From Gammaproteobacteria bacterium (GTDB lineage Bacteria; Pseudomonadota; Gammaproteobacteria; Steroidobacterales; Woeseiaceae), in assembly GCA_024640305.1 (NCBI GenBank), contig JAHEFG010000043.1:310001-374000 (forward strand): 64,000 nt of DNA. Direction: 5' to 3'. Both the position numbers and the translations under genes were made by a program. This document shows positions 1 through 40,795 of the stretch, in pieces. The notes beneath the pieces are model-generated. The model was given only the letters and a program-made list of their open reading frames with translations. It was not told where the DNA came from and made no database searches. Numbering within the stretch: the stretch's first letter is position 1; each line of letters starts with the position of its first letter.

Positions 1-549
1 CGGTCGTTATATGGCGGCTTCGTGGAACTGGAGAATCGTGCCCAGGACGTTTCGGTTTCCAGCCTGAGGGCCGCCGCCGATTGGCCGCTACAGGTTGTGG
101 TCGCCATTACGGCAACAGGGCCCAAGCCCGTCGGTTCGACCGAGGCAATGGAAGTCAGCCGCAAGACATCACCGTTTTTCGAGCGTTGGGTAGAACAGCA
201 GCCGCAGGATCTGGCCATCGCACGGGAGGCCATTGCCGGCAGCGACTTTGCCGCTTTGGCCGCGATTGCTGAACACAACTGCCTGAAGATGCACTCCGTG
301 ATGTGGGGATCGCGTCCACCAATGATTTACTGGAACAGCGTTACGCTCGCCTGCATGCAGACAATAAGGAATTTGCAGGAAGACGGCGTCCCGGTGTTTT
401 TTACGATCGATGCCGGGCCCCAGGTAAAGGCCGTTTGTACTGCCGAAGCTGTGTCGCAGGTGCAACTGGCACTGGCGGACACGACCGGCGTCGAAGCAGT
501 GATGCTCAGTGGTCTCGGCGCAGGCGCGGCATTGGAGTCGACTGCATGA
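1..549 (+). CDS. mvaD: Diphosphomevalonate decarboxylase, 3' part
   Basis: Last enzyme of the mevalonate pathway: ATP-dependent decarboxylation of mevalonate diphosphate to isopentenyl diphosphate, cytosolic. The reading frame is open from base 1 and runs through an RSLYGGFVE segment, which matches the conserved region following the serine-rich ATP loop of this family, so the true start lies left of the window. Further family marks are the AEHNCLKMHSVM helix and the FTIDAGPQVK strand near the C-terminus. The start-like codon at 22 is only a valine inside the gene. Its stop overlaps the ATG of the next kinase (ATGA), so translation is probably coupled. About 182 codons are visible. Confidence 0.93.
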   Translation, partial: RSLYGGFVELENRAQDVSVSSLRAAADWPLQVVVAITATGPKPVGSTEAMEVSRKTSPFFERWVEQQPQDLAIAREAIAGSDFAALAAIAEHNCLKMHSVMWGSRPPMIYWNSVTLACMQTIRNLQEDGVPVFFTIDAGPQVKAVCTAEAVSQVQLALADTTGVEAVMLSGLGAGAALESTA

Positions 550-1550
550 GCGATGCAATGCCGATAGTGGCAAGCGCGCCTGGCAAGGTGATTTTGTCTG
601 GTGAATACGCGGTACTCGATGGTGCGCCGGCCATATGCATGGCTGTCGATCGTCGTGCACGGGTTACTCTCGAATACTGCGATGAGGGTTATAACGTCGT
701 TGCCGCGCCAGGCTATACGGAGTCAACGGCCCGATTCAGGGTCGCTGACGGTGCAGTGGAATGGCTTGAAGGCGGCGAGGACTTCAAGCTTGTGGAAGAC
801 TTGTGGCGAACAGCATACGTCGAAACAGGCAGGCACTTTTCAATTCGCCTGGATACAAGCGAATTCGTCGATGCGGCAAGTGGCGCCAAAATTGGTATTG
901 GTTCCAGTGCCGCGTTGATGAGCGCATTCGCCGCCGCGCTGTGCCATGCTGGCGACGTTGACGAAGACGCCAGCAGGATCGCTTTTGCTGCGCACCGAGC
1001 GCTTCAGGAAGGCCTGGGCAGCGGCGCAGACATAGCGTGCTGCAGTCGCGGCGGTCTGATCGAGTACACGATGGGCAAAGGTACTGGTCACTCTGTCGCT
1101 TGGCCTGAGGGTCTGGTTTTCGGCCTGTTTTGGAGCGGTGTTCCGGCAATTACGAGCGCCAAACTGAAGCAACTTATTAAAAGTGACCCGCGCCCATCGC
1201 GAGCCGCGCTTATGCTCGCCTCGAGGCGTGTGGCGTCGGCCTGGAGCAGTGGTAACGCGCGGCAGGTTCTGCTCGAATATCGGGACTACATACAGGTGCT
1301 GCGGGAATTCAGCGGTGATCATGCACTTGGTATTTTTGACGCCGGTCATGCAGAGATGGGGGCGGTAGCTGAAGCGGCAGGCCTTGTCTACAAGCCGTGT
1401 GGCGCAGGAGGCGGCGATATCGGAATCGTCCTGTGCGACGATGCGGAATCGCTTGCAGCGTTCGTCGATCGTGCAAAAGAGCAGAATTTCCGGCACCTTC
1501 CAATAAGTGCCGACCCACTCGGCGTGCAGGTTACAGGACAAGGTTGTTGA
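546..1550 (+). CDS. Phosphomevalonate kinase (GHMP family)
   Basis: Phosphorylates mevalonate-5-phosphate to mevalonate diphosphate. The 334-residue protein has the three GHMP kinase motifs: an N-terminal APGKVILSGEYAVL, the ATP loop KIGIGSSAALMSAF (about residues 115-127) and a C-terminal KPCGAGGGDIGIVL. The ATG at 546 is chosen because it sits in an ATGA overlap with mvaD and begins just before the first motif; the same frame is open much further upstream but that part overlaps mvaD and shows no family similarity. The gene stops at 1550 inside the TTGA junction with the reductase-kinase fusion. Assignment as phosphomevalonate rather than mevalonate kinase follows from position and from the separate mevalonate kinase domain next door. 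Confidence 0.88.
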   Translation: MSDAMPIVASAPGKVILSGEYAVLDGAPAICMAVDRRARVTLEYCDEGYNVVAAPGYTESTARFRVADGAVEWLEGGEDFKLVEDLWRTAYVETGRHFSIRLDTSEFVDAASGAKIGIGSSAALMSAFAAALCHAGDVDEDASRIAFAAHRALQEGLGSGADIACCSRGGLIEYTMGKGTGHSVAWPEGLVFGLFWSGVPAITSAKLKQLIKSDPRPSRAALMLASRRVASAWSSGNARQVLLEYRDYIQVLREFSGDHALGIFDAGHAEMGAVAEAAGLVYKPCGAGGGDIGIVLCDDAESLAAFVDRAKEQNFRHLPISADPLGVQVTGQGC

Positions 1551-3775
1551 GCGACTCCCGGATCAAAGGTCTCTACCGGCTAAGCATCGCCGAGCGCATT
1601 CGTGCGCTCCGGCAGCAGGGATGGCTATCGGCTGCAGATGCGGAGCTGCTGCAACAGGGCAGGCACGTGTTGTCGCCGGCTGTTGCGGACAGAATGATCG
1701 AGAATGTCGTTGGTGTTTTCGGTTTGCCCATGGCGGTCGCGCCCAATTTCGTCGTTAATGGTCAGGATTACATCGTGCCGATGGTTGTCGAGGAGCCCTC
1801 TATAGTTGCTGCGACGAGTAACGCGGCGCGATTGGCGCGCAGTTGTGGCGGTTTCACCGCATCATGTGCCGAATCACTGCTCGTCGGGCAAATACACGTC
1901 ACGAATGTAGACGATCCGGAATCCGCACTGTCGAGGCTGAACTCCGTCAGCGTCGAGTTGCTCGAGCGGGCCAACGCGGTTCATCCGAGGCTCGTAGCTC
2001 GCGGCGGTGGTGTGCGGGAAATCGTATCGCGGTCGATGTTGCTCGACGATGGCACCACAGCGATTGCCGTACACATGCTGGTTGATACTTGCGACGCGAT
2101 GGGAGCCAACCTGGTCAATACGATTTGCGAGGCGGTGGCGTCGCGAGTCGCGGAGCTTTGTGGTGGTGAAGTCGCGCTGGCAATCCTTTCAAATCTCGCC
2201 GACAGGTCGCTGGTGTCGGCACGAGTTCGATACCGACCAGCAGATCTTGCCACGTGCGATACCACCGGAGACCTGGTGCGGGATCGAATCGTGCTTGCCA
2301 GCGATATTGCAAGCGCAGACCCCTATCGTGCGGCAACTCACAACAAAGGCGTCATGAACGGCATTGACGCTGTTGCCATAGCGACGGGCAATGATTGGCG
2401 CGCGATTGAAGCGGGTGCACATGCGTTTGCAGCAGCAACAGGTACCTACAGACCGCTGGCAACCTGGTCCGTCGCCGACAATGGCGAGCTCCAGGGTGAT
2501 ATCGAAATGCCACTGAAAGTCGGGGTTGTGGGTGGCAACCTGGACGCAAATCCTGCGGTGGCTGCTGCCATCAGAATTGCCGGCGTGCAGTCGGCAATCG
2601 AGCTTGCCGAATTGATGGCCGCAGTCGGATTGGCCCAGAATTTCGCGGCATTGAAGGCCCTGGCGACGACGGGAATCCAGGATGGGCATATGCGACTGCA
2701 TGCGCGCAGCGTCGCGGCGACGGCCGGCGTGCCGGACGAATATTTCGACGAAGTGCTGGACGAGATGATTGCCAGCGGCGATATCAAGGTTCAGAAGGCA
2801 CAGGAATTACTAGCCAGGCGGCGCTCGACATTGCCGCGACGCGAACCGTGTGCAACAGCGGCGGGCAAAGTTATTCTGCTGGGCGAGCACGCGGTGGTTT
2901 ATGGACGGCACGCGCTGGCATTGCCTATACCAGACGCGGTGTCAGCAAAGGTCAGCAAGATTGATGCCGGTGTAAGTATCTCGATACCCGAATGGGGCGT
3001 TTCGCAGCGGATCGACGTCGGCGATTCCACTGGTATTGCCGCGGCACTGAACCTGATTCTTCGTGAGCTGGATATCGCGGGGTCGGGATACGAGATCCGT
3101 TTGCGCGCAGATTTGCCTCGCGCGATGGGGCTGGGGTCATCGGCTGCTCTCGCCGTAGCTATCGTGCGTGCGTTTAGCGCGGAACTTGGGCTGGGTCTTG
3201 ACGATGCCCGGGTAAACGCGATCGCGTTCGAGTGCGAGAAGCTTGCACATGGCACGCCATCGGGAATCGATAACACGATAGCGACCTATGCGGTGCCGAT
3301 GAAATTTCGTAATGCCGGGTCGCTGCAGGTTGAGAACCTCGCATTGACAGAGTCGCCACCGATCATCATCGCCTGCAGCAACTCACCGGGTTTGACCATG
3401 GAGCAGGTTGCCGGTGTTCGTGCGCGCCACGAGCAACACCTGGTGCGTTATGAGGCGCTGTTCGACGAAATAGATGCGCTGAGTCAGGCTGGCGCTGACG
3501 CGCTTGTCAGGGCTGATTATGCGGAGCTCGGCATGCTAATGAACATCTGCCAGGGATTGCTAGGCGCTATCCAGGTTTCGACCGCCGAGCTCGAGGGGAT
3601 GGTGCATTTAGCTCGCTCAGCAGGCGCAAGTGGAGCCAAGTTGACCGGTGGTGGCGGCGGCGGTTCGATTATTGCGCTTTGCCCTGGCAAAGTTTCAGCG
3701 GTTCGTAATGCACTGGCATCGGCGGGGTTCAGAACCCTGAGTCTGAGCCAACAAGATGAGGTAGGGAGTGAATAG
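1547..3775 (+). CDS. HMG-CoA reductase-mevalonate kinase fusion protein
   Basis: One frame of 742 codons encodes two consecutive mevalonate enzymes. Residues 1 to about 425 are a class II HMG-CoA reductase. With the TTG at 1547 as codon 1, the catalytic residues fall at Glu83 (EEPSIVAA), Lys267 (HNKGVMNG), Asp283 (ATGND) and His381 (GHMRLH), the same numbers as known for Pseudomonas mevalonii reductase, which supports this start. After a short Arg-rich linker, residues from about 434 form a GHMP mevalonate kinase: AAGKVILLGEHAVVYG, PRAMGLGSSAALA and KLTGGGGGGS. The frame is continuous with no frameshift. The TTG overlaps the preceding stop (TTGA) and the end overlaps idi by eight bases, so the cluster reads as one operon. 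The upstream in-frame ATG at 1397 lies within the kinase gene and is rejected. Confidence 0.93.
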   Translation: MSDSRIKGLYRLSIAERIRALRQQGWLSAADAELLQQGRHVLSPAVADRMIENVVGVFGLPMAVAPNFVVNGQDYIVPMVVEEPSIVAATSNAARLARSCGGFTASCAESLLVGQIHVTNVDDPESALSRLNSVSVELLERANAVHPRLVARGGGVREIVSRSMLLDDGTTAIAVHMLVDTCDAMGANLVNTICEAVASRVAELCGGEVALAILSNLADRSLVSARVRYRPADLATCDTTGDLVRDRIVLASDIASADPYRAATHNKGVMNGIDAVAIATGNDWRAIEAGAHAFAAATGTYRPLATWSVADNGELQGDIEMPLKVGVVGGNLDANPAVAAAIRIAGVQSAIELAELMAAVGLAQNFAALKALATTGIQDGHMRLHARSVAATAGVPDEYFDEVLDEMIASGDIKVQKAQELLARRRSTLPRREPCATAAGKVILLGEHAVVYGRHALALPIPDAVSAKVSKIDAGVSISIPEWGVSQRIDVGDSTGIAAALNLILRELDIAGSGYEIRLRADLPRAMGLGSSAALAVAIVRAFSAELGLGLDDARVNAIAFECEKLAHGTPSGIDNTIATYAVPMKFRNAGSLQVENLALTESPPIIIACSNSPGLTMEQVAGVRARHEQHLVRYEALFDEIDALSQAGADALVRADYAELGMLMNICQGLLGAIQVSTAELEGMVHLARSAGASGAKLTGGGGGGSIIALCPGKVSAVRNALASAGFRTLSLSQQDEVGSE

Positions 3776-4340
3776 CGCACATCGAGTTGTTTCGTCCGAG
3801 GCCGAAGAACTGATTCTTGTCGACGCTGACGATAACGAAGTCGGCTTCCTGTCCAAAGCTGACTGTCACGATGGCGCCGGCATTCTGCACCGCGCGTTTT
3901 CCCTGTTTCTCTTCAATGGAGAAGGTGAGCTGTTGCTGCAACAGCGCAGTCAGTCGAAGCGGCTGTGGCCGGGTTTCTGGTCAAATAGTTGTTGCAGCCA
4001 CCCGCGCCGCGGGGAGTCGATGCAAGTCGCAACACAGCGCCGGCTGCTCGATGAACTGAACATCGAAACATCGCTCGAGTATGTCTACAAATTCAGTTAC
4101 GAAGCCAGTTTTGGCGACCTCGGATCCGAGAATGAGCTGTGCCAGGTTTACCTTGGCAAAGTCGGGGAAGCGGTGCGGGCAAACGCCCACGAGATCGCCG
4201 ACATCCGTTTCGTTTCGGCTGCAGCTTTGGCTGCCGAAATGGATGCGTCGCCGCAACAATTTACACCGTGGTTCAAAATGGAGTGGCAAACACTCCTGAC
4301 GGAGCACAAGGCAATGCTCGCAAACTACTGCGGCGACTAG
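3768..4340 (+). CDS. idi: Isopentenyl-diphosphate delta-isomerase, type I (Nudix)
   Basis: Interconverts IPP and DMAPP, cytosolic, metal dependent. The 190-residue length fits type I isomerases. Visible motifs are the FSLFLFNGEGELLLQQRS Nudix-type strand, the WSNSCCSHPRRGE segment that carries the catalytic cysteine, and SENELCQVY carrying the catalytic glutamate. GTG at 3768 is preceded by a GTAGGGA ribosome site and overlaps the fusion gene by eight bases, indicating coupling. Its stop TAG shares the palindromic CTAG with the stop of the convergent HMG-CoA synthase gene. It completes the pathway to DMAPP in this operon. Confidence 0.93.
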   Translation: MNSAHRVVSSEAEELILVDADDNEVGFLSKADCHDGAGILHRAFSLFLFNGEGELLLQQRSQSKRLWPGFWSNSCCSHPRRGESMQVATQRRLLDELNIETSLEYVYKFSYEASFGDLGSENELCQVYLGKVGEAVRANAHEIADIRFVSAAALAAEMDASPQQFTPWFKMEWQTLLTEHKAMLANYCGD

Positions 4341-5821
4341 CTCACGTACTTGTAGTATTCGATTCCCAGGTCGCTGAAGTGCCGTTCGTCGGCAATTCCC
4401 ACCCGATCGATCACGAATTCGTCTCGCGGGGCGTAGTCCAGGCCATTAACGCGGCGGCCATCGTGCAGAGCTACGTACTGATCAGCGTTGAGGTCGATGG
4501 TGAAGTCCATTGCGTCACCAAAACGAATTGCTGCGGTGGCCTCGCGCCACCCTTCGGCCATGAAGAACGGAATAACCTCTGCGGCGTCGCCACTGCCGTA
4601 ACCGAGTGTTAGTACTTCCTCACCTGGTGCGAGTGAATTTTCATCGAGTGCCTGTTCAAAACCGGCAGCCATCCAGGCAGGGAGCGCGGCGGTGTAAAGG
4701 TTGCCGAGATCGAGCATTGTGTCGCTGCCGAGCGCGAGCTTGTCGAGAATCTCTCGTCGGTAGCGGCGCGATGCACGAAAAACTTTGTGCACGGCCATCG
4801 TCAGCGGATACACCTCAAATTGCAGCTGCTCCGCATTGGCAAGCTGAGCCACATCCGGTTTCGTGATCATTTCACTGTGTAGCGCCGCGGCGTCGATACC
4901 TGCTTCATAACAATACGAAGCGAGTTCTGCGCGATCTTCGGCATTGCCCCGGCTGAGCCCGAACAGGTAAGAGATAGCCCAACCGGTTTCGGGCATGCGA
5001 CGATAGGGCCGATGCATGAATACAGTCCTTAATGAGCGCATGTATTCGGCAGCATTGATGCCCCGTTTCGCGTACATGTCATTCAATGCATGCAGCGTTT
5101 CGTCAATGTAACAAGTAGTCGAGTACTTGCCATTAAAAACCGGGAAATCCTGAACCTGGTGTGTCTCAGCACGACTTTGCCCACAAAAACGGGACATTGG
5201 TTTGCGGAAGTCCATTATCCGGTAGTCCGAAGCCGACCCGGACGCGGGGAGATCGACGACGGCCAGTTTTGGATCTTCCTCGAGCAACATCGCCACGGCT
5301 CCGGCGCCCTGTGTTGGTTCGCCGCTGGAACCGCGCGCGTATTCGGCAATGTCAGCACAAACGACAATTGCCTGCCCGCCGGCGCCATCTAGCGCGAGGT
5401 GTCGAATCGCACCTTTCATGCCATAGACGCCACCCAGACAAGCGTGCTTGAACTCAGGTACTTCGCAGCTTCTTGCGATAGGGGCTTTGCCACGAGCGAT
5501 GAGGGCCCGATCGACCATGCCCTTGACGATAATTGCACCGGCGGAGTTGTCAGTACTCGACTCCGTGCCCAGTCCCAGGAACTTGATCTGGGTCGGGTCG
5601 ACGTCGTATTGCTCGATGAGCCGCATGACAGCGGTTGCGGCCATTGTATAGACGCTTTGATCGGGACCGCGCATGCGGAAGCTCCGCCCAACAACCTCGC
5701 GGATCTTTGGCCATTGGTTGTCCGTCCAGCTACACCAGTCTTCCAGCCAGACACGATATGGCGGTATATAAGCGGCAAGCCCGCTTATTCCGATTTTCCT
5801 ATTTTGGCTGGTTTGATTCAT
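4337..5821 (-). CDS. Hydroxymethylglutaryl-CoA synthase
   Basis: Condenses acetyl-CoA with acetoacetyl-CoA to HMG-CoA, the entry step of the mevalonate pathway. Of 494 residues, the catalytic Glu lies in LGLGTESSTDNS (about 87), the acyl-binding Cys in KHACLGGVYGMKGA (about 128) and the catalytic His in FMHRPYRRMP (about 270); LGYGSGDAAEVIPF matches the late GSG motif. ATG at 5821 (MNQTSQNRK) is preferred over the in-frame codon 18 residues upstream because similarity begins right after it. It is longer than the roughly 390-residue Gram-positive enzymes. It faces idi, sharing four bases at the stops. No acetoacetyl-CoA thiolase is seen in the window. Confidence 0.9.
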   Translation of the reverse strand: MNQTSQNRKIGISGLAAYIPPYRVWLEDWCSWTDNQWPKIREVVGRSFRMRGPDQSVYTMAATAVMRLIEQYDVDPTQIKFLGLGTESSTDNSAGAIIVKGMVDRALIARGKAPIARSCEVPEFKHACLGGVYGMKGAIRHLALDGAGGQAIVVCADIAEYARGSSGEPTQGAGAVAMLLEEDPKLAVVDLPASGSASDYRIMDFRKPMSRFCGQSRAETHQVQDFPVFNGKYSTTCYIDETLHALNDMYAKRGINAAEYMRSLRTVFMHRPYRRMPETGWAISYLFGLSRGNAEDRAELASYCYEAGIDAAALHSEMITKPDVAQLANAEQLQFEVYPLTMAVHKVFRASRRYRREILDKLALGSDTMLDLGNLYTAALPAWMAAGFEQALDENSLAPGEEVLTLGYGSGDAAEVIPFFMAEGWREATAAIRFGDAMDFTIDLNADQYVALHDGRRVNGLDYAPRDEFVIDRVGIADERHFSDLGIEYYKYVS

Positions 5822-5879
5822 GAGTCGAAAAGTCTTTAGCCCGGGAATTCTAGTGTTCCGGAGCCCATCACTCAACCAT

Positions 5880-36108: not shown

Positions 36109-37911
36109 ATGAAACCGACTGATACCAACAACCCCGACTACTTTCATAAAGTCGTCGATTGTCAGTGGGCCTGCCCAGCCCATACCGACGTGCCGCTCTA
36201 CATCCGCATGATTGCGCAGGGCCGTTTCGGTGACGCATACATAGAAAACCGCAAGTCAAACGTCTTCCCGGGAATTTTGGGGCGCGTCTGCGACCGGCCG
36301 TGCGAGCCGGCCTGCCGACGTGGCCGCGTTGAAGATCGCCCTGTCGCGATCTGTCGGCTGAAACGCGTTGCCGCTGATCACCGTGATGACATCAGCGACC
36401 GGCTGCCAAAAGCAACGGCAAGCAACGGCAAGAAAGTTGCGCTAATTGGTGCCGGCTGCGCTTCCTTAACGGTCGCCAATGATCTTGCGCCGCTGGGATA
36501 TGAAATTACGATCTTCGAGGCGCTGAAAACCACTGGCGGGCTAATGCGGACCAACATCCCGCAATTTCGTCTACCGCCCAAAGTGCTGGACGAGGAGATT
36601 GGCTACATTCTCGATATTGGCGTCGACCTGAAGCTGAATCACCCGATCGACAGCATGAAAGAACTGCTCGATCAGGGGTATGACGCTGTGTTCGTCGGCA
36701 CGGGTGCTCCTCGCGGTAAGAATCTAGACATTCCGGGGCGTTATGACTCCGAAAACATCCACATTGGTATCGATTGGCTGGAGTCGGTCGCGTTCGACCA
36801 TATTGAAAAGATTGGTAAGCGGGTCCTGATTATCGGGGTGGGTAATACGGCCATGGACTGCTGCCGCACATCAATGAGAATTGGCGCCGAAGATGTAAAA
36901 GTCATGGCGCGCAAGCCGCGCGAATTTTTCAAGGCTTCCGCCTGGGAACTGGAAGATGCCGAGGAAGAGCATGTCGAGATTCTCGTCAATCATTCGCCTA
37001 AAAATTTCGTTATAGAAGACGGCAAGCTAGTCGGCATGACGTTCGAGATCATGGAGTACAAGATTGATGATGGCGGCCGTATCGATCGTGGCACCGTCGT
37101 TGGTGAGGAAGTCATTCCCTGCGATGACGTTATCCTGGCAATTGGCCAGGACAATGCATTTCCCTGGATCGAACGCGACATAGGCATCGAGTTCAACGAC
37201 TGGGAATGTCCGATCGTCAGTGAAGAAACGATGATGTGTTCGCGTGACGGAGTGTTTTTCGGAGGTGACGCGGCATTTGGACCGAAGAATATTATCTGGG
37301 CAGTTGCTCATGGCCACGAGGCGGCCATTTCGATACATAGGTATATCCAGGGCAATAGCCTGACAGACAGGTTGCCGCGCGGCGTTAATCTGTCGAGCCA
37401 GAAAATGGGCGTTCACGAGTGGAGTTTCTCCAACGATTTCGATCCGACGGGCCGGCGCCTGATGCCGCACGTCGATCTGAAAGAACGCTTCAAGAAACTC
37501 GATATAGAGGTCGAGCTCGGGTTTACGGCTGAGCAGGTGACACAAGAAGTTGAGCGTTGTCTGAATTGTGATATCCAGACAGTTTTCACCGAGAAACTGT
37601 GTATCGAATGCGATGCGTGTATCGATATTTGTCCCGTCAATTGCCTGACGATCACTCACAATGGCGATGAAGCGGACCTTAGAACACGATTATCGGCGCC
37701 GGCGGAAAACCTCGAGCAGGCGCTTTACGTTTCAGGCGACTTGCCGCAAACCTCCAGGGTCATGGTGAAGGATGAAGATCTATGCGTGCATTGCAGCCTG
37801 TGCGCAGAGCGTTGCCCGACCGGTGCGTGGGATATGCAGAAGTCTATCGTGCTGATTCCACAGGTCGCTGACGAAGTCGCTGATGACAAGGCGCAAACCT
37901 CGGCGGCATAA
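36109..37911 (+). CDS. Fe-S/FAD/NAD(P) oxidoreductase subunit paired with KorAB
   Basis: A 600-residue electron-transfer protein. The N-terminal 110 residues hold a cysteine-rich GltD/DPD-type domain (DCQWACPAHTDVPL, CDRPCEPACRRG). Then come a FAD fold (VALIGAGCASLTVANDLAPLGY), a NAD(P) fold (RVLIIGVGNTAMDCCR) and a second FAD motif (GVFFGGDAAFGPKNI). The C-terminus has two ferredoxin motifs (CIECDACIDICPVNC, CVHCSLCAERCPTG). It probably moves electrons between the 2-oxoacid oxidoreductase encoded by the next two genes and NAD(P). A weak promoter-like TTTACT/TATGCT pair lies upstream. Confidence 0.88.
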   Translation: MKPTDTNNPDYFHKVVDCQWACPAHTDVPLYIRMIAQGRFGDAYIENRKSNVFPGILGRVCDRPCEPACRRGRVEDRPVAICRLKRVAADHRDDISDRLPKATASNGKKVALIGAGCASLTVANDLAPLGYEITIFEALKTTGGLMRTNIPQFRLPPKVLDEEIGYILDIGVDLKLNHPIDSMKELLDQGYDAVFVGTGAPRGKNLDIPGRYDSENIHIGIDWLESVAFDHIEKIGKRVLIIGVGNTAMDCCRTSMRIGAEDVKVMARKPREFFKASAWELEDAEEEHVEILVNHSPKNFVIEDGKLVGMTFEIMEYKIDDGGRIDRGTVVGEEVIPCDDVILAIGQDNAFPWIERDIGIEFNDWECPIVSEETMMCSRDGVFFGGDAAFGPKNIIWAVAHGHEAAISIHRYIQGNSLTDRLPRGVNLSSQKMGVHEWSFSNDFDPTGRRLMPHVDLKERFKKLDIEVELGFTAEQVTQEVERCLNCDIQTVFTEKLCIECDACIDICPVNCLTITHNGDEADLRTRLSAPAENLEQALYVSGDLPQTSRVMVKDEDLCVHCSLCAERCPTGAWDMQKSIVLIPQVADEVADDKAQTSAA

Positions 37912-37924
37912 CAGGAAAGCAATC

Positions 37925-39727
37925 GTGGCTAAACTTAACGACGTCGTCATCAAAATCGCTACAGTCAACGGTACCGGTTCGGCAAGCGCAAACGGTCTGA
38001 TCATGAAATCTCTTTTTCGCATGGGGATTCCGGTCGTTGGCAAGAACTATTTCCCGTCAAATATTCAGGGTCTGCCTACCTGGTACGAAATACGCGTGAC
38101 GGGTGACGATTACCAGTGCCGATCGGATCGCGTTGACGTAATGGTCGCGATGAACGCGCAAACATACGCCCGCGATCTGGCGGAAGTGATTCCGGGTGGT
38201 TGGTTCATTTACGATTCTACGTGGCCGAGAAATACTCAGCTTGGCCGAGATGACATCACCATTATTGGTATCCCGCTGTCGAGAATGTGTAACGAACATT
38301 TCGACGGTGCCCGCGCCCGTATTCTGATGAAGAATATTGCATATGTCGGGGCGTTGGCGGCATTCCTGGCTATCGACATTGACACCATTACCGAGTTGAT
38401 CGAAGAGACGTTTGCTGACAAGAAACACCTTATCGCCTCCAATATGGAGGCGATAAAGCTGGGTTTTGACTATGCCAGGAAAAACTTCGTGTGCCCGCTG
38501 CCCAGCAAGGTTGCGGCGATGGATGGCACGAAGGGGCACATCATCATCGACGGTAACACTGCCGCAGGTCTGGGTTGCCTGTATGCCGGCGCGACCGTTG
38601 GCGCGTGGTATCCGATTACACCGTCGACATCATTAATGGACGCGTTTCGGACCTTCTGTGCCGAGTATCGCGTCGACCCGGAAACAGGGAAGCGCACGTA
38701 TTGCATTATCCAGGCCGAAGACGAGCTTGCCGCAATTGGCATGGTTCTCGGTGCAAGCTGGAACGGCGCACGATCATTCACGTCCACGAGTGGCCCGGGC
38801 ATTTCGCTGATGAGTGAGTTCCTGGGCTATGCGTACTATGCGGAAATACCGGCGGTTCTTTTCAATGTGCAGCGTTGCGGGCCATCCACTGGCATGCCGA
38901 CGCGCACTCAGCAGTCAGACATTATTAGTTGCGCGTATGCTTCGCATGGCGATACCAAGCATGTGTTGCTGTTCCCGGCGGATCCGGGCGAGTGCTTCAC
39001 GATGGCACAAACAGCTTTTGATCTCGCCGAGCGTTTGCAGACACCTGTAATGGTATTGTCGGATCTAGATATCGGGATGAATGATTGGATGGTCCCGGAG
39101 TTCGAATTTGACGAAAAGAAGATTGCGGATAGAGGCAAAGTCCTTTCTGCCGCAGAACTCGAGCAGATGGAGTCATTCCATCGCTATCTGGACGTTGATG
39201 GTGACGGCATTCCGTATCGGTCATTGCCTGGTGTGCATCCGAAAGGGTCTTATTTCACGCGCGGCTCCGGACACACGAAGTATGGTGCTTATACCGAGGA
39301 ATCGAGTGAGTACCAGGATGTTGTTGATCGCTTGCTGCTCAAATGGGAAACCGCGAGATCGATTGTGCCGGAGCCGGAAATCGAATTCTCGAAATTCAAT
39401 AAAGCAGCGATATTGAGTTTTGGCAGTAGTCACGGTGCCTGCCAGGAAGCGCGCGACCGTCTTGCGGCGCAGAACATTGCTCTGAACTATTGCCGCGTCA
39501 AGTCGTTTCCGTTCTCTGCGTCCATCAAGGAGTTCATTCAGCAGCACGAAGTTGTCTATGTCGTTGAGCAGAACCGTGACGCTCAGTTCAGGGCACTGCT
39601 AATGCTTGATAGCGACGCAGATCCGTCCAAGCTCATTTCGCTGTTGCATTACGATGGTATGCCGTTAAACGCCGGTTTTGTGGTCCGGAGAGTGCTTGAG
39701 GAAATCGCAAAAGGCCAGGCCGCCTGA
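37925..39727 (+). CDS. korA: 2-oxoacid:acceptor oxidoreductase, fused gamma-alpha subunit
   Basis: A 600-residue subunit. The N-terminal third is the gamma domain (TVNGTGSASANGLIMKSLFRM); the rest is the alpha domain, with the marker GNTAAGLGCLYAGATVGAWYPITPSTSL and SGPGISLMSEFLGYAYYAEIPAV. The fused order is that of KorA-type 2-oxoglutarate enzymes, though pyruvate or other 2-oxoacids cannot be excluded. GTG at 37925 follows AGGAAAG, 13 bases after the preceding stop. It pairs with the beta subunit 12 bases downstream. Confidence 0.88.
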   Translation: MAKLNDVVIKIATVNGTGSASANGLIMKSLFRMGIPVVGKNYFPSNIQGLPTWYEIRVTGDDYQCRSDRVDVMVAMNAQTYARDLAEVIPGGWFIYDSTWPRNTQLGRDDITIIGIPLSRMCNEHFDGARARILMKNIAYVGALAAFLAIDIDTITELIEETFADKKHLIASNMEAIKLGFDYARKNFVCPLPSKVAAMDGTKGHIIIDGNTAAGLGCLYAGATVGAWYPITPSTSLMDAFRTFCAEYRVDPETGKRTYCIIQAEDELAAIGMVLGASWNGARSFTSTSGPGISLMSEFLGYAYYAEIPAVLFNVQRCGPSTGMPTRTQQSDIISCAYASHGDTKHVLLFPADPGECFTMAQTAFDLAERLQTPVMVLSDLDIGMNDWMVPEFEFDEKKIADRGKVLSAAELEQMESFHRYLDVDGDGIPYRSLPGVHPKGSYFTRGSGHTKYGAYTEESSEYQDVVDRLLLKWETARSIVPEPEIEFSKFNKAAILSFGSSHGACQEARDRLAAQNIALNYCRVKSFPFSASIKEFIQQHEVVYVVEQNRDAQFRALLMLDSDADPSKLISLLHYDGMPLNAGFVVRRVLEEIAKGQAA

Positions 39728-39739
39728 GGGCTAGTAATA

Positions 39740-40795
39740 ATGAGTTATATTTCCAAACCAAAGATCCAGCACCCGAACGCACGTCGTAACAAGCTTGGGC
39801 TTACATCCCGGGATTACGAGGGCGCCGTCTCGACATTATGCGCTGGCTGCGGCCATGACTCGGTTACGGCTGCCATCGTTCAGTCCGTATACGAATTGAA
39901 CATCGAGCCTCATATGCTGGCGAAGATGAGTGGCATCGGTTGCTCGTCGAAGACGCCCGCGTACTTTGCGAGCCAGTCGCACGGTTTCAATTCGGTACAT
40001 GGGCGCATGCCGTCGGTTACTACCGGAGCCAATGCGGCGAACAGAACGTTGACGTATATCGGCGTGTCCGGCGATGGGGACTCCCTTTCGATCGGCGCGG
40101 GCCAGTTCGTACATGCAATTCGGCGTAACCTGAATATGTGCTACATCATCGAAAACAATGGTGTATACGGGCTGACGAAGGGGCAATTCTCAGCGTCGGC
40201 GGATATCGGCAGCAAACCCAAAAAAGGTCTGCCGAATCAACAGGAACCCATCGATCCGGTCAGTATGGCGTTAAGCCTGGGCGCTACGTACATAGCCAGG
40301 AGTTTTTCCGGCGACAAGGAACAACTCGTGCCCCTCATTCAGGGCGCCCTGATGCACAAGGGTTTCGCGCTTGTGGATGTGATTAGCCCCTGTGTGACAT
40401 TTAACGACCATGAGGGCTCGACAAAAAGCTACGCGCATACGAGGAAGCATTATCATAATGTCGTCAACGCTGACTTCATCGCGCCCGCGGAAGAGATAAA
40501 AACTGCCTATGACGAAGGATCGGCGATGTCTGTCGAGCTACATGGCGGCAGCAAGATCGTCCTGCGCAAGGTCGACAAAGACTATGACCCGAGCAGTCGC
40601 GCATCGTCCTTCAAGTACCTGCGTGACAGGTTTAACGCGGGCGAAATAATAACTGGATTGCTGTATATCGACGAGGCGCGCAACGAAATGCATGATTTGA
40701 TGGGCAATGTCGATATGCCCCTGTCGCAGCTTCCGCTGGAAACGCTCAACCCCGGCAACAAAGAGCTCAAGAAGATACTGAGTGGTTACCGCTAG
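39740..40795 (+). CDS. korB: 2-oxoacid:acceptor oxidoreductase beta subunit
   Basis: A 351-residue thiamine diphosphate-binding subunit: CAGCGHDSVTAAIVQ at the N-terminus, SGIGCSSKTPAYF, the GDGDSLSIGAGQFVHA TPP-Mg motif and NNGVYGLTKGQFSAS. The Fe-S cluster cysteines of the beta subunit are partly visible as Cys in CAGCGH and GCSS. With the alpha-gamma subunit it forms an enzyme that oxidises a 2-oxoacid to its CoA ester, or carboxylates it in reverse. It ends 65 bases before the terminator-like hairpin. Confidence 0.9.
   Translation: MSYISKPKIQHPNARRNKLGLTSRDYEGAVSTLCAGCGHDSVTAAIVQSVYELNIEPHMLAKMSGIGCSSKTPAYFASQSHGFNSVHGRMPSVTTGANAANRTLTYIGVSGDGDSLSIGAGQFVHAIRRNLNMCYIIENNGVYGLTKGQFSASADIGSKPKKGLPNQQEPIDPVSMALSLGATYIARSFSGDKEQLVPLIQGALMHKGFALVDVISPCVTFNDHEGSTKSYAHTRKHYHNVVNADFIAPAEEIKTAYDEGSAMSVELHGGSKIVLRKVDKDYDPSSRASSFKYLRDRFNAGEIITGLLYIDEARNEMHDLMGNVDMPLSQLPLETLNPGNKELKKILSGYR

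Follow-up and report, generated by a model that had tools for sequence, protein, structure and literature searches.

Is the single reading frame that unites HMG-CoA reductase (HMGR) with mevalonate kinase (MVK) at this locus a genuine gene, and if so, which pathway does its product serve? The gene lies at positions 1547..3775 on the plus strand of the window, i.e. the whole stretch of 64,000 nucleotides that was analysed, and encodes 742 amino acids between a TTG start and a TAG stop. The preliminary description had placed both domains in one uninterrupted frame. This was borne out, as the translation contains no internal stop over all 742 residues and both halves score above NCBIfam equivalog cut-offs. 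The TTG codon at 1547 shares bases with the stop codon of the gene before it and marks the same start point as in homologues opening with MSDSRI in alignment A1. Besides the query, the 44 rows of this alignment comprise 12 of 120 listed proteins together with 31 loci; not included were L012, which has a stop inside its range, and, for reasons of size, further fused loci. Residues 1-427 (1547..2827, +) form a class II HMGR domain, whose three-helix C-terminal flap is placed by the predicted model at about residues 377-427 (2675-2827, +; helices 377-392, 397-410 and 415-427). A linker of about residues 428-435 (2828..2851, +), delimited by the predicted model and the 44-row alignment, leads to the MVK domain at residues 436-735 (2852..3751, +), which contains GHMP motifs 1-3 and an HGTPSGIDN motif.

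Domain searches assign the two halves consistently. Pfam matches above cut-off are PF00368 at residues 14-386 (338 bits), PF00288 at 499-581 and PF08544 at 651-726. The NCBIfam model for class II HMGR, TIGR00532, is passed at residues 3-386 with 390 bits (cut-off 259.95) and the MVK equivalog TIGR00549 at residues 438-711 with 222.4 bits (cut-off 163.05); TIGR00533, which represents the other, NADPH-related HMGR class, reaches 29.6 bits against a cut-off of 441.8. The best PDB matches obtained with the A1 profile are HMGRs for one half and MVKs for the other, in agreement with the fold matches of the predicted model. No thiolase domain was matched in the fusion protein by Pfam or NCBIfam, and the HMGR match already starts at residue 3. 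With no thiolase match and with a C-terminal kinase, the fusion is indeed unlike MvaE, as had been proposed. The reductase residues listed beforehand as intact, Glu83, Lys267, Asp283 and His381, occur at exactly these residue numbers and are invariant in A1; the catalytic Glu, Lys, Asp and His of HMGR are kept in 58/58 fused rows. The three kinase motifs noted at the outset also hold up, as the fusion protein carries the GHMP motifs GKVILLGEHAVVYG, PRAMGLGSSAA and GAKLTGGGGGG. Throughout the 44 rows of A1, the MVK half shares K441, E447, G528, G530, S532, E564, D575, G701 and G703-G706, and most residues of its glycine-rich motif are invariant. We take these residues, from K441 to G706, to represent the GHMP motifs and the region of the catalytic Asp.

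The architecture is widely shared. All of the best 120 of 7959 protein matches, a selection that favours close relatives and includes the window's own protein (P0002), carry PF00368, PF00288 and PF08544 at lengths of 706-747 residues. Fifteen of these homologues (P0003-P0017), 88-91% identical over 96-100% of the query, span the linker, and the named MAG L007 (89% identical) is open there too; thus, the hidden stop or frameshift considered at this site was not found. Names among the best 120 of 7959 matches, some of them incomplete, refer to the reductase only and never to the kinase, so that the kinase step can seem missing in carrier genomes. Among the best 80 of 576 loci from named genomes, which likewise favour close relatives, 51 are fused, 22 contain adjacent separate genes and 7 contain a reductase with no kinase found in the locus. 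The names of the nearest loci (L001-L007) suggest that the window comes from a gammaproteobacterium close to Woeseiaceae. The fused loci include Rhodanobacter and Dyella isolates as well as MAGs named Woeseiaceae and Nevskia; several of the 51 (L017, L042, L047 and L055 among them) end at contig ends with the joint still in one frame. A Myxococcota label is attached to 19 of the 22 separate-gene pairs, the other three being L070, L073 and L074. The search for an HMGR-GHMP architecture in other genomes that the preliminary description had suggested did find the fusion elsewhere; the architecture is not rare, being common in one order. Two of the fused copies are from MAGs labelled as other phyla, namely L038 (G464), named Myxococcales, whose genome gave the fusion but no other match, IspH included, and L041 (G465), named Planctomycetota, in which fusion and IspH lie on separate contigs. 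These two cases are compatible with transfer as well as with misbinning.

As predicted from its genes, the operon around the fusion completes the lower mevalonate pathway. The order is diphosphomevalonate decarboxylase (MVD), phosphomevalonate kinase (PMK)-like gene, HMGR-MVK and type 1 isopentenyl-diphosphate isomerase (IDI-1), all on the plus strand, with neighbouring genes overlapping by 4 to 8 bases. MVD begins before the window, at contig position C13:309587, and its C-terminal part occupies 1..549 (+; TIGR01240, 250.8 bits, cut-off 171). The PMK-like GHMP kinase gene (546..1550, +) overlaps the fusion gene by 4 bases. Its product stays below the TIGR01220 cut-off (98.6 bits against 165.7) and matches PDB 3k17 at 1.8e-14; among the operon's enzymes its assignment is the least certain, being based mainly on operon position. 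IDI-1 (3768..4340, +), which overlaps the fusion gene by 8 bases, passes the cut-offs of NF002995 and TIGR02150. On the opposite strand follows a divergent HMG-CoA synthase homologue of 512 amino acids (4337..5875, -), with PF01154 and PF08540 above cut-off and PDB 5hwo as best structural match (2.4e-30). Its TIGR01835 score of 159 bits is far below the NCBIfam cut-off of 360 for this prokaryotic family, and the assignment rests partly on position. FPP synthase is encoded upstream of the mevalonate operon, also on the opposite strand. Among the 51 fused loci within the best 80 of 576, MVD precedes the fusion in 41 and IDI-1 follows it in 45, and 16 show the complete series that begins with FPP synthase and ends with HMG-CoA synthase. 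In L041, MVD and PMK are located downstream of the fusion instead, and L038 and L046 have neither gene despite long flanks. The divergent HMG-CoA synthase homologue adjoins the fusion in many near loci.

Distribution of the fusion was compared with that of DXR and IspH, markers of the MEP pathway. The window's own genome (G000) contains only one HMGR and only one MVK over the cut-off, and neither DXR nor IspH was matched in it; as this genome is only 78% complete, it is mainly its relatives that speak for a lack of MEP genes. The order sample comprised 99 genomes, 61 of the genus (own genome included) and 38 others. In the genus, the fusion query matched in 60/61 genomes and 59 have both domains in one frame; for six of these this was deduced from a pair of matches that abut and whose open frames are equal, and some copies end at contig ends. 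The exceptions are G006, with a reductase only, and G026 (73% complete), with no match. DXR was found in 0/61 and IspH in 0/61 genus genomes. Outside the genus, 22 of the 38 genomes carry the fusion and 16 carry DXR and/or IspH (both genes in 14, only DXR in G076, only IspH in G066). No genome among the 38 combines the fusion with either marker, and none is devoid of markers of both pathways. This mutual exclusion extends into a single family (f4), where G063 stands against G077 and G090. Among 369 genomes sampled evenly across the class, 29 match the query at <=1e-30: nine contain the whole fusion, G278 as the tenth carries a copy truncated at its contig end, and those beyond these ten have stand-alone reductases. 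DXR occurs in 300/369. Beyond the order, members of three other families sampled in the class (f55, f133 and f176) also carry the fusion. Weak partial matches to P0001 (25-45% identity) in the order and class samples were left out of all fusion counts. G137 is the only one of the ten fusion carriers of the class sample with DXR (fusion at G137:C4:29261-31498, L113), and exclusivity is therefore not absolute in the class; this genome is possibly in transition or equipped with two pathways. The exclusion inside one order, and even inside family f4, provides an example in which pathway replacement in Gammaproteobacteria can be studied. In the available part of PMC7691419, the mevalonate pathway is specific to Wenzhouxiangella as compared with Marinicella.

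The fused state probably has a single origin, judging from trees of the HMGR and MVK domains that were built with a quick method. In the 106-row HMGR tree, 58/58 fused rows fall on one side of one branch, with an SH-aLRT value of 91 that is below the 95 mark, and the fused state requires one change as compared with a mean of 35.2 after shuffling. In the MVK tree, the 22 separate-gene rows group together (99), but the tree carries a warning about long branches meeting. A second apparent change of the fused state in this tree stems from L124, which was counted as 'alone' and whose fusion is cut by a contig end. Pairwise distances of the HMGR and MVK domains are correlated over 57 fused rows (Mantel r 0.94; 0/2000 permutations as high), so both domains have travelled together. 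A plausible precursor-like arrangement, which by itself leaves ancestry unproven, is found in Myxococcota (Corallococcus, Myxococcus and Archangium), where adjoining HMGR and MVK genes occur in the same order as in the fusion. In contrast to the fusion, these pairs are separate open frames, and MVD, where found, mostly comes after the pair and not before it. Separate pairs of the Myxococcota type and fused proteins thus offer a natural test of what is gained by fusing consecutive enzymes.

With a probability of roughly 0.88, we consider the fusion product to be one bifunctional, biosynthetic enzyme on the route to isopentenyl diphosphate; both activities, the use of NADPH, the benefit of fusion and the route to it are what we infer here from sequence and context. 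The N-terminal class II HMGR would reduce HMG-CoA to mevalonate, probably with NADPH, and the kinase tethered at the end of the mobile HMGR flap would convert mevalonate and ATP to 5-phosphomevalonate. Fusion would set both activities at a ratio of 1:1 within one assembly, and the ATP-driven kinase step may draw the reversible reductase step forward with less mevalonate lost. The first of the two steps, HMGR, is described as rate-limiting in the accessible text of PMC13001223. The fusion probably originated once, when neighbouring HMGR and MVK genes lost the stop codon that separated them, and its product would serve a mevalonate pathway that replaces the MEP pathway in these gammaproteobacteria.

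Other explanations of the locus fare less well. Adjacent separate HMGR and MVK genes do occur, mostly in Myxococcota, and might be joined artificially by an assembly error or a frameshift; yet 119 homologues besides the window's own, among the best 120 of 7959, are also fused, and the fused loci stem from different named genomes including the Rhodanobacter and Dyella isolates. Because independent genomes carry the fusion, we regard such an artefact as refuted, with a vanishingly small residual chance. It is also highly unlikely that only one domain is active and the other half a structural passenger, given that catalytic residues are conserved in both halves and that the fusion is the sole HMGR of the genome and its sole MVK over the cut-off. 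Even less credible, though not as remote as the artefact, is a degradative enzyme in which HMGR is run backwards to feed on mevalonate. This reading can draw on the best NCBIfam match, TIGR00532, which carries that name, and on three homologues among the best 120 of 7959 (P0023, P0068 and P0121) that NCBI names 'hydroxymethylglutaryl-CoA reductase, degradative'. However, the kinase would presumably compete for the same mevalonate and, sitting on the same chain, would spend ATP on a substrate due for breakdown, the operon makes IPP, and DXR and IspH are missing from the sampled fusion genomes of the genus and order.

Moreover, the cofactor helix of the fusion is not of the NADH type. According to the excerpts available of the respective papers, NADPH-using enzymes carry a motif (H/Y)xSxxxR (PMC13370337), and the P. 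mevalonii HMGR employs Asp-146, Leu-148 and Leu-152 for NADH (PMC10070635). The window protein has His, Arg and Arg in place of this Asp, Leu and Leu; its helix HPRLVAR matches both ends of the NADPH motif but not the third position (Ser). Among the fused rows, the first position is His in 56/58 and the last Arg in 58/58, whereas the third is mixed, with Ser in 1/58 and Arg in the window protein; separate-gene rows resemble them (His 21/22, Arg 22/22). Five stand-alone reductase rows do contain the NADH-type Asp, and their genomes also match DXR, but so does the genome of G162 (L135), whose stand-alone reductase lacks this Asp. We read 'degradative' as a misnomer for the fusion enzyme and its role as biosynthetic. 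A more specific proposal is that mevalonate is truly channelled, the tethered kinase catching it before diffusion, perhaps gated by the flap at product release. In favour of this, the predicted model joins the kinase straight behind the HMGR flap helices, the flap of class II HMGRs closes and opens during catalysis, as stated in the available portion of PMC10070635, and the fusion has been kept across families. On the other hand, the linker is poorly conserved and variable in length, with 10-59 amino acids separating its conserved borders at residues 427 and 440 in 44 rows, and model confidence is low, with a pLDDT below 50 at linker residues 429-433. At a pTM of 0.58, the relative placement of the two domains is predicted with little confidence and the model offers no reliable interface. 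A channel is therefore unsupported here, and we consider it unlikely, although less so than a passenger domain. Proximity and co-production are the safer reading. Similarly doubtful is a kinase coupled to the HMGR flap, such that flap closure or product release would position or gate the kinase, mevalonate would stay within the assembly, and the reductase would be pulled and regulated by the state of the kinase. If this were true, the fusion would amount to a naturally occurring channelled unit where the mevalonate pathway is entered, and its single appearance would have gone along with the MEP pathway being replaced in one lineage of Gammaproteobacteria.

The bifunctional biosynthetic enzyme proposed here joins a known class of fused isoprenoid-pathway enzymes, of which MvaE and IspDF are named in the available part of a 2026 review (PMC13001223). 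The MvaE protein of Enterococcus, an acetoacetyl-CoA thiolase-HMG-CoA reductase, is likewise a natural two-enzyme fusion of the mevalonate pathway with a class II HMGR. In MvaE, the upstream thiolase sits on the N-terminus of HMGR, as described in the accessible sections of PMC10070635, whereas here the next enzyme, MVK, is attached to the C-terminus behind the flap. IspDF of the MEP pathway also fuses two enzymes of isoprenoid precursor synthesis; as far as the available text of PMC13001223 goes, these catalyse non-consecutive steps of that other pathway, whereas HMGR and MVK catalyse consecutive ones. In stand-alone class II HMGRs from Pseudomonas mevalonii, Delftia, Burkholderia and Streptococcus pneumoniae, the matched PDB chains stop at the flap. 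An earlier wide description of the architecture, named beforehand as a possible refutation, was not found as far as the open-access literature reaches, outside of which most subscription papers lie: no prior description came up there, and the HMGR-MVK fusion is unmentioned in the available portions of PMC13001223, PMC13412983, PMC7691419, PMC13370337, PMC10070635 and PMC12292504. The architecture is already visible in sequence databases, but its meaning and spread seem to be undescribed. As a natural bifunctional enzyme, it would cover two consecutive steps of a widely engineered pathway.

Some additional reductase sequences were encountered in the survey. One genus genome that also has the fusion encodes a second, stand-alone reductase with 45% identity (G047:C28:14720-15967). 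Partial matches to the reductase half, with 25-28% identity over about 335-345 residues, are located at G002:C246:3167-4204, G016:C48:8080-9087 and G068:C22:10427-11434; G002 and G016 belong to the genus, and G068, with 28% identity, is an MEP genome of the order. These distant matches perhaps belong to another, more remote family of HMGR-like proteins. Ten other proteins of the window were surveyed with Pfam, which revealed nothing bearing on the fusion. At 36109-40795 (+), three genes for FAD/NAD and ferredoxin-type, POR-type and TPP-binding proteins resemble a 2-oxoacid:ferredoxin oxidoreductase.
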